Part shown: one piece after another, positions 14,798 through 31,880 of the stretch
Layout of the letters: the number at the start of each line of letters is the position of its first letter
Numbering within the stretch: position 1 is the first letter of the stretch
NCBI RefSeq assembly: GCF_004116465.1
Contig: NZ_PDJV01000001.1
Coordinates: 186,001-250,000, forward strand
Length of the DNA: 64,000 nucleotides
Origin: Arcobacter sp. F2176
GTDB lineage: Bacteria > Campylobacterota > Campylobacteria > Campylobacterales > Arcobacteraceae
Reading direction: 5' to 3'
Notes under the pieces: generated by a model
The model's input: the letters and a program-made list of their open reading frames with translations, nothing else
The model's database searches: none
What the model was told of the DNA's origin: nothing
Program-made: the position numbers and the translations under genes

Positions 14798-14872
14798 TGG
14801 ATGGGGTAGCAGGATTCGAACCTGCGAATATCGGCACCAAAAGCCGAGGCCTTACCGCTTGGCGATACCCCA
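14798..14872 (-). tRNA. tRNA-Gln (TTG)
   Basis: 75 nt on the minus strand. Acceptor stem TGGGGTA/TACCCCA, anticodon loop CTTTTGG with anticodon TTG, T arm GTTCGAATC, and CCA encoded (14798-14800 on the plus strand). It lies 12 bases upstream of tRNA-fMet in the direction of transcription, so the two are probably one transcript. Confidence 0.95.
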
Positions 14873-29030: not shown

Positions 29031-29309
29031 TTACATTCCCATAAATAATCTTCCTAAAAATGTTTCTAGGAAAATAAGTATTAAAATAAGAATCATTGGT
29101 GCTAAATCCATACCACCAAATACTGTAGGAATATACTTTCTTATTAAAGCATATGCAGGTTCTGTCAATCTATATAGCATTTGAACTATTGGATTATAAG
29201 GATCTGGTCTAACCCAAGAAATAAGTGCCGAAATAATCACCACCCACTTATATAAAAATATAACACTCATTACAACTGTAGCAATTGAGCCTATTAATGC
29301 ATCTGTCAT
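29031..29309 (-). CDS. yggT: YggT family membrane protein
   Basis: 92 residues with two membrane regions (about 6-32 and 68-90). The YggT signature [20 protein letters not shown] is complete, followed by a conserved Arg-Lys-x-Ile-Pro. Function is poorly known; members are linked to cell division, membrane integrity or cytochrome-related roles. Its start overlaps the gltX-like stop by 4 bases. Confidence 0.88.
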
Positions 29310-30595
29310 TTTACAATCTCTCCCATATAATTTTTAATTAGTGAATAAATAGCTGATAAATTTGGACCTGTATGTGTTCCTGTTAAAAGATATCTCAAGT
29401 TTATTGATAAGGATTTATCATCTAATTTTGTATTTTCTATAATATATTTTTCTAATTCATTAAAATCATCCATAAAAGGAGCATATGACAAACATTTTTT
29501 TAAGTTAGAAAATTCATCTTCAAATCCTTTTAAAGAAACTTTTGAACTAAAAATCAAATCTATTTTAGCTTTAATCTCATTTATTGTACTTTCTTCATCT
29601 AAATATAGTTTTCCTAACTTTCCAATATCTGTATCAGCAAACCCTAATATTTTGGATAATCTCATTTCATCTAAATCAGCAATATGTTTTTTGTTGATAA
29701 GTTTTAATTTTTCTATATCAAATTCAACTGTATCTTTTGAAACTTTTTTAATATCAAACCACTCAATAGCTTCTTCAATTGTAAAAATTTCATTTGGAGT
29801 TTCATTTCCTAATAAGACTAAATAATTAGCAATTGCACTTGGTAAAAACCCTTGTTCTATAAATTGTTTTACACTATTTTCAGCATTTTTTTTATTACTA
29901 TTTACATTTAAAATAGAAGAAAGGTGTATATATTCAATACTTTTAGTATAGTTTAATTGATTTCTTACATGTATTTGTTTTACTGTATTTTCTATGTGTC
30001 TTTCATCTCTTATTACAGTAGAGATATCATAAAGCATATCATCAACAGAACAAGAGAAGTTATAAGTTGGTGTTTTATCATGTTTTAAAATGATAAAAGA
30101 ATCAACATTAGATGGTTCAAAAGAAAAATTTCCTTTAAGTAAATCAGTAAATTCTATAATATTTTCTGGCTTTTTAATTCTAACAGTAAATGGTGCATTG
30201 CAGTTTAAAACTGTTTCATCTGATAAGGTTTCGCAAAAACCATCATAACTATTTGGTTTCCCTTTTTCTTTACATTTAACTTTTATTTCTTCTAACTTTT
30301 CATTAGAACAAAAACAAACAAAAGCTTTTTTTGAACTCATTAATTGCATTGTTAATTTTTGGTGATATTTAAAATTTTCACTTTGATAAACAACAGATTT
30401 ATAATCAATAGAAAAAAGATTTAAAAGTTCAAGTATTTCTTTTTCATTTCCATCAATGTTTTTTTCTTTTTCAGTATCTTCTATTCTTACCAAAAGTTCT
30501 TCATTTAACTGCTTAGCAACAATATAATTGAATAAAGCAACTCTTAGGTTTCCTATAGTCATAAGCTCTGTAAGACTTTGCGAAAATCTTAACAA
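29306..30595 (-). CDS. GltX2-type glutamyl-tRNA synthetase homologue with lost HIGH and KMSKS motifs
   Basis: 429 residues, TTG start. The frame follows the GluRS fold end to end: [67 protein letters not shown]. The catalytic signatures are changed. The start reads [16 protein letters not shown] where RFAPSPTG..HIG is expected (His to Thr13), the GEDH segment reads DERH (197-200), and the KMSKR loop reads NSNKKNAEN (~232-240). ATP binding and adenylate formation should fail. It is thus probably a pseudo-synthetase or a decaying second gltX; a second, intact gltX would be required elsewhere. Confidence 0.75.
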
Positions 30596-30596
30596 A

Positions 30597-31880
30597 CTAT
30601 TTCCTTACTATCGAAAATGATAAATTCTTTATCTCAGTATGAGATTTAACATAATCATTAATCTGTTTTAAACTTAATTCTTCTATTTTTTCTAACTCTT
30701 TAGTTGAATAGTCTTGATTTAAACCTCTATAATAAAGAGTAAACGCTCGATTTAATCTTTGACTTAAAGTTTCAACTCTTAAAGGCTCACTTCCTGTTAA
30801 AAAACTTTTAGCAGCTTCCAATTCATCTTTTGTGATACCTTTTTTTACGAATTCATCAACAATTTTGTTTACTAAGTCTTTTGCTTCATTTGCTGTTTCG
30901 TTTTTTGTTTGTAAATAACCAGTAAAATATGTATGAGATTTATTTATGGAAATTTGACCATAAGCACTGTATGCTAAACCTCTTTTTACTCTTATTTCTT
31001 CCATCAATCTTGAACCAAAACCACTTCCACCTAAAATAAATGAAGCTACTTTTGCAATATAATTATTTTCATCATTTACTTTTACATCAAAAGGACTTCC
31101 AAAATAAATATATGCTTGTTCTGTCTCTTTTATCTGTTCTTTTATAACTTTTTTATCAGAAGCCTCAATATCAATCATTTTTGATTCTTTTCCATGTTTT
31201 AAAGAGCTTAAAAGAGGGGTTAAATCATTTTTTACTTCGTCTAAAGTAATATCACCACCTGCTACAATTATTAGATTTTCTAAAACTAAATTTGAATTAA
31301 TAAAGTTTTTAACATCATCAAGTGAGATTTTTGAAATAGATTCTGTTGTCCCACTTGATGGGTTTTCTAAAGAAGTACCCTTAAAAAGTATTTTATTTAA
31401 TTCGTTTCTTGATACATAATCAAAATCATTTTCTTTTCTTTTTAAAGAACCTGTTAAAATTGTTTTTACTTTTTCTAATGATTCATCTTTATAGTTGGGA
31501 GATTTTATCAATTCTTTTAATAATTCTAGTCCATTTTTGTAAACATCTTTAATAGATGATAATTCAATAACAAATGTTTCAAAACCATGAGAAACATTTA
31601 GTGAAATTGCTAAATTTTCTAATTTTTGTGCAAATTTTGTACTTCCATCTTCTAAAGTACCTTCATTTAATAATCTTGCAGATAAACCTGCTAATCCATT
31701 TTTATCTTTATCTTTTATTGAACCACTATTTTTGAAAACTAATTGTAAATTAAAAGTTGGCAAAGAGTGTTGTTCTTCAAAAATTATTGGTATATTTGTA
31801 TTTTCTATTTTAATATGCTCTATTTGGGCACCCATTAAAAATCCTTGTATTATAAATAAAATTAATGCTATTTTTTTCAT
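30597..31880 (-). CDS. M16-family peptidase-like protein without zinc motif
   Basis: 427 residues with a signal peptide (~1-17, [10 protein letters not shown]). Two M16 domains. Where active subunits have HxxEH this protein reads GLSAR (65-69), so zinc cannot bind. The second domain keeps the R/Y feature in [13 protein letters not shown] (~294-306), typical of the non-catalytic partner in two-subunit bacterial M16B enzymes. No catalytic partner gene is next to it. Periplasmic location inferred. It lies 1 base before the gltX-like gene and 7 after mqnC. Confidence 0.8.

Follow-up and report, generated by a model that had tools for sequence, protein, structure and literature searches.

The window analysed here, a stretch of 64,000 nucleotides from Arcobacter sp. 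F2176, carries a gene, gltX2, which belongs to the glutamyl-tRNA synthetases by its sequence family and has lost the catalytic signatures of these enzymes. In Campylobacterota, GluRS2 (GltX2) normally serves as the glutamyl-tRNA synthetase specific for tRNAGln, and the locus raises the question of what became of this activity and what, if anything, the remaining protein does.

A second glutamyl-tRNA synthetase without its catalytic signatures

The 429-codon frame of gltX2 is uninterrupted, and an AAGGAA Shine-Dalgarno-like run lies closely upstream of its TTG start (Table 1). The protein scores 341.8 bits against TIGR00464 (cut-off 289.95), which places it in the bacterial glutamyl-tRNA synthetase family. 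There are exactly two gltX genes in the genome, and the product of the other one, GltX1 (contig C5, 467 aa), has all of its motifs intact (HIGG, GDDH, KLSKR); it is the GluRS1 orthologue, with H. pylori GluRS1 (6b1p, 514 bits) as its best solved relative. In epsilonproteobacteria HphiGN is the mark of GluRS2 and HphiGG that of GluRS1 (PMC3927822). Since HIGN is what the intact orthologues of the window gene have, this gene is assigned to GluRS2, the tRNAGln-specific type: it is orthologous to the second GluRS with HphiGN and stands apart from GluRS1.

The window protein was aligned first with 30 and then with about 170 orthologues. In the alignment the ATP-site signatures of a working enzyme, HIGH and KMSKS, were not recovered (TIGN, DERH and KKNAE stand at the three motif positions): SPTGDM upstream of the HIGN position of intact orthologues has become SLTELM, and their KMSKR loop, QTGKKMSKRDDASSV, is rewritten and four residues shorter. 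Such changes are far beyond chance, and broken motifs were seen again in 57 further Arcobacteraceae orthologues, so that decay confined to this strain is excluded. Judging from the motif changes, we infer that the window GltX2 no longer charges tRNA, the glutamylation of tRNAGln being predicted to be lost. The fold predicted with AlphaFold nevertheless matches GluRS structures (pLDDT 91.2), the former KMSKS loop being the only segment with pLDDT under 50. The preliminary description, which had reported lost signatures in an intact frame and fold and kinship to the second GltX of Helicobacter, is borne out in these respects; to it can be added that the gene lies on the minus strand.

Table 1. 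Positions of gltX2, its motifs and other features discussed in the text (window coordinates).
Feature	Positions	Strand	Basis or remark
gltX2 (GluRS2) pseudo-synthetase, 429 aa, TTG start	29306..30595	minus	frame, profile match, alignment
HIGH position: TIGN (HIGN in intact orthologues)	30548..30559	minus	alignment
Putative zinc site C-x-C...Y...C (C94, C96, Y117, C121), acceptor-binding domain	30233..30316	minus	kept in 57/58 dead Arcobacteraceae copies
GEDH position: DERH	29996..30007	minus	alignment
KMSKS loop remnant (residues 233-238, 4-aa deletion)	29882..29899	minus	alignment, predicted structure
Connection and anticodon-binding domains (residues 242-429), retained	29309..29872	minus	structure prediction, residue retention
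GGAGAG, Shine-Dalgarno-like run for yggT inside last gltX2 codons	29318..29323	minus	encodes conserved Gly-Glu
YggT-like membrane protein (presumed name)	29031..29309	minus	overlaps gltX2 by 4 bases (ATGA)
M16-like peptidase, next gene upstream of gltX2	30597..31880	minus	selection control
tRNA-Gln(UUG)	14798..14872	minus	U1-A72 acceptor pair retained; GlnRS-negative relatives have it too

Co-distribution with GlnRS and recurrence of the loss

In a sample of 104 Arcobacteraceae genomes gltX2 was kept in 102, and GlnRS, called by TIGR00440 matches above the cut-off, was found in 60. A fixed rule assigned the motif state of 100 Arcobacteraceae sequences, and a copy was called broken (dead) if two or all three of its motifs were lost. 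Where GlnRS was present (as a fusion with YqeY), GluRS2 was broken in 57 of 59 cases and intact in two (G091, G093); where it was absent, GluRS2 was intact in 40 of 41, the single broken copy coming from a 74% complete genome (G018). G025 and G096, whose GlnRS matches are partial or riddled with stops and whose GluRS2 is intact, were counted as GlnRS-negative. The association between motif breakage and GlnRS presence gave p = 2.5e-24 in Fisher's test, a statistic that ignores phylogeny. Broken copies are found in Malaciobacter halophilus, Poseidonibacter and Halarcobacter, and intact ones in Arcobacter caeni, A. cryaerophilus and A. vandammei. The GlnRS match of G025 (C171:7988-9214) contains 15 in-frame stops; in this genome it seems to be GlnRS, instead of GluRS2, that was lost.

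Across the order GlnRS was found in 136 of 399 sampled genomes. Outside Arcobacteraceae, GluRS2 was broken in 53 of 60 GlnRS-positive cases (three at KMSKS only) and intact by the rule in seven, and all 14 copies examined from GlnRS-negative genomes, a small and non-random sample, were intact. Intermediates exist as GlnRS-positive genomes with intact GluRS2; a Sulfurimonas copy adjoining glnS (L215) has HIGD and DEDH, yet its KMSKR is intact. A glnS gene lies within 1.5 kb of gltX2 for 25 dead and three intact copies outside Arcobacteraceae (e.g., L231, L234, L277) and near only one Arcobacteraceae copy; adjacency therefore does not provide a general functional link between the two enzymes. 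As a separate observation, one member of the order with an about 100% complete genome (G308) has no GlnRS match and no GluRS2, only GltX1 together with GatB, and its GltX1 is possibly non-discriminating; genomes of families f14 and f17 and of genus g56 likewise have a single GluRS-type match.

The altered residues and the deletion lengths vary from genus to genus. A neighbouring-gene tree requires at least 8 changes of motif state within Arcobacteraceae, five of them forced by well supported branches, and on a gltX2 tree built with the motif columns removed the minimum is 21 order-wide. Such counts carry no direction; loss was assumed because re-evolution of whole motifs is unlikely, and replacement of gltX2 by transfer is a possible alternative to it. 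In a GlnRS-negative genome (G063, locus L035) an intact GluRS2 is surrounded on the neighbouring-gene tree by broken Aliarcobacter copies, possibly as the result of a regain by transfer. Among phylogenetically independent pairs on the order-wide gltX2 tree, loss and GlnRS agree in about 9.7 of 11, with none opposite (median p = 0.002); the Arcobacteraceae tree alone gives 4.7 of 5, too few pairs for significance.

Taken together, GluRS2 was lost repeatedly, and on the trees these losses go with GlnRS; the dead state is old, being common to whole genera. That the acquisition of GlnRS relieved the active site of GluRS2 of selection is strongly supported by this co-distribution. The genome of the window itself encodes GlnRS-YqeY (C7:65647-67212, 722 bits) with HIGH and MSKR motifs intact, and we infer that GlnRS is its working tRNAGln-charging route. 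No co-evolution of tRNAGln with GlnRS was seen, as the acceptor stem and the arm are the same in GlnRS-positive and GlnRS-negative genomes.

Selection and residue retention in the dead copies

Selection was estimated on close clades as the maximum-likelihood omega of a codon model (GY, F3X4), for which pairwise NG86 dN/dS was abandoned owing to saturation. Omega was 0.068-0.084 in five dead Arcobacteraceae clades (0.084 in that of the window), 0.115-0.139 in two dead clades outside the family and 0.017-0.031 in five intact ones, while the flanking M16 peptidase gene, used as a control, gave 0.025-0.078. Constraint on the dead Arcobacteraceae copies is thus relaxed two- to fourfold and still strong. 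About 7% of random substitutions in gltX2 (24% GC) would create a stop; no in-frame stop was found in any of the 58 dead Arcobacteraceae copies, and all of their indels are in frame.

Retention was scored in the dead Arcobacteraceae copies at positions invariant in intact copies, the glutamate pocket (Thermus numbering), the zinc site and the domain borders being presumed from the general GluRS architecture. Overall, 89% of such positions outside the ATP site were retained, against 21% of those in the ATP-site signatures. The figure reached 98% at the putative zinc site and 96% for the connection domain together with the first anticodon domain; it was 76% for the second anticodon domain, whose R401, invariant in live copies, is kept in less than half of the dead ones. 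The presumed glutamate pocket fared worse than the remaining invariant positions, with 82% vs 89% in Arcobacteraceae and 64% vs 82% outside.

Outside Arcobacteraceae gltX2 is reduced to 380-400 aa, with a minimum of 278, and in one GlnRS-positive genome (G138) the match contains stops. Seven of the 80 GlnRS-positive genomes there have GltX1 only (G042, G129, G142, G143, G222, G272, G345), and one more shows neither GltX. As gltX2 is dispensable in some lineages, and GatB persists there without AsnRS, neither GlnRS nor GatCAB universally needs GluRS2, which weakens a universal role of the protein as a GatCAB scaffold.

The combination of lost catalytic residues with purifying selection on the remainder, seen both in omega and in residue retention, is that of a pseudoenzyme, and we are highly confident that the window gltX2 is a GluRS2 of this kind, displaced by GlnRS and held under selection. 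The dN/dS analysis thus favors the suggestion of the preliminary description that the paralogue may have gained a non-aminoacylation role. Its other suggestion, that the gene is at the beginning of its loss following a change of the other GltX to a non-discriminating enzyme, disagrees with the age of the dead state and the open frame of every dead Arcobacteraceae copy, the actual correlate being the acquired GlnRS-YqeY.

Possible function and alternative explanations

Since the remainder of GltX2 is under purifying selection, the dead protein very probably does some non-catalytic work that has gone unrecognised. In the scheme we propose, GluRS2 and GatCAB would once have supplied Gln-tRNAGln indirectly; GlnRS-YqeY, charging tRNAGln directly, would then have been acquired by the lineage, after which the ATP-binding signatures of GluRS2, released from selection, would have decayed and the mobile KMSKS loop would have been trimmed. 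The non-catalytic role was probably already a second role of the active enzyme. The best-held parts (the zinc acceptor-binding site, the connection and the first anticodon domain) face the tRNA, which makes tRNA binding its most likely job; judged from the conserved domains, we consider this assignment evenly balanced. The ligand would most simply be tRNAGln, whose acceptor-stem determinants are unchanged, and the protein may act as a tRNA holder, carrier or regulator beside GlnRS or GatCAB. The full scenario, in which a synthetase became a non-catalytic tRNA-binding factor many parallel times in one order, each time after GlnRS acquisition, is plausible, though we would put it slightly short of even.

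The gene downstream, which we take to be yggT (no NCBIfam profile matched it), offers another reason for keeping gltX2: the latter might have no function of its own and be kept translatable and soluble for a coupled yggT starting inside its stop codon. The neighbour is conserved beside nearly all gltX2 copies, dead and live, and the ATGA overlap occurs in 53 dead and 38 live Arcobacteraceae copies and in 42 dead copies outside, where gltX2 also shrinks, as a relic of this sort might. Coupling would, however, explain an open 3' end, not an omega near 0.08 over 420 codons, and it has no need of the conserved zinc cysteines and full-length fold. Moreover, 98 of 108 dead copies have a GGAG run for yggT within the last gltX2 codons, so that most of gltX2 may be unnecessary for the initiation of yggT; this run, encoded by the C-terminal Gly-Glu, explains part of the C-terminal conservation. 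We consider this explanation unlikely. Rather less likely still is an ATP-independent deacylase that hydrolyses Glu-tRNAGln in the old site against mischarging by GluRS1. H. pylori GluRS2 reportedly hydrolyses excess Glu-tRNAGln (Huot et al. 2011), and R3, S7 and E/D39 persist in 58, 55 and 56 of the 58 dead Arcobacteraceae copies, respectively; the presumed glutamate pocket shows, however, less conservation than sets of invariant sites drawn at random, the opposite of what a pocket in use predicts.

That gltX2 is a pseudogene decaying after the arrival of GlnRS, with the window strain as one snapshot, appears very improbable: some GlnRS-positive genomes outside Arcobacteraceae have indeed lost the gene or keep fragments, but omega is far below 1 in every dead clade, and the open frames, in-frame indels and genus-wide dead state in Arcobacteraceae do not fit such decay. 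The idea that GltX1 turned non-discriminating and serves both tRNAs through GatCAB is scarcely credible. It could draw on the broken copy without a GlnRS match in the incomplete G018 genome and on the retention of GatCAB (GatB in 102 of 104 Arcobacteraceae genomes). With AsnRS in none of the 104, however, GatCAB remains because Asn-tRNAAsn must form indirectly, and as it is needed for asparagine, its presence is uninformative on glutamine. Motif loss, in turn, follows GlnRS almost perfectly, which indicates that it was GlnRS which took over from the GluRS2/GatCAB route, and not a GltX1 that had become non-discriminating. The reading we prefer is that the dead GluRS2 is kept for a non-catalytic role, probably the binding of tRNA.

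Synthetase folds without their original aminoacylation role are known in HisZ, which regulates HisG, and in GluQRS/YadB, which keeps the ATP site and activates Glu. The window-type GluRS2 is predicted to be similar in retaining the fold without the role, and differs in that its dead state is recurrent and tied to a displacing enzyme. With H. pylori GluRS2 it shares the subfamily, by its signs, the fold and the pairing with GluRS1 and GatCAB; H. pylori, however, is without GlnRS (PMC9976931), whereas GlnRS accompanies the window copy and its dead relatives, in which the catalytic signatures are missing. The second GluRS of Thermotoga maritima and other hyperthermophiles is likewise reported to be unable to glutamylate tRNA, as is predicted for the window copy, but it is described as a duplicate of the GluRS1 catalytic domain keeping HphiGG (PMC3927822), while here a once-active tRNAGln-specific enzyme repeatedly lost HIGH, GEDH and KMSKS alongside GlnRS. 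The same 2014 survey recorded both GlnRS and GluRS2 in 6 of 10 epsilonproteobacteria and suggested, as GluRS2 was always present, that the GlnRS does not function (PMC3927822). Our data indicate the reverse: in genomes with GlnRS it is usually GluRS2 that is dead. A literature search, mostly outside subscription journals, found no published description of GluRS2 motif loss.

The case amounts to a replicated natural experiment in which a direct tRNA-charging enzyme displaces an indirect route. The annotation 'glutamate--tRNA ligase' of many conserved proteins is probably wrong as to activity, since the motif-blind TIGR00464 profile still passes them. If the preferred reading is true, GluRS2 would have an unrecognised second function that outlives catalysis, e.g., the handling of tRNAGln for GlnRS or GatCAB, and in culturable genera such as Malaciobacter or Poseidonibacter this hidden role becomes testable.
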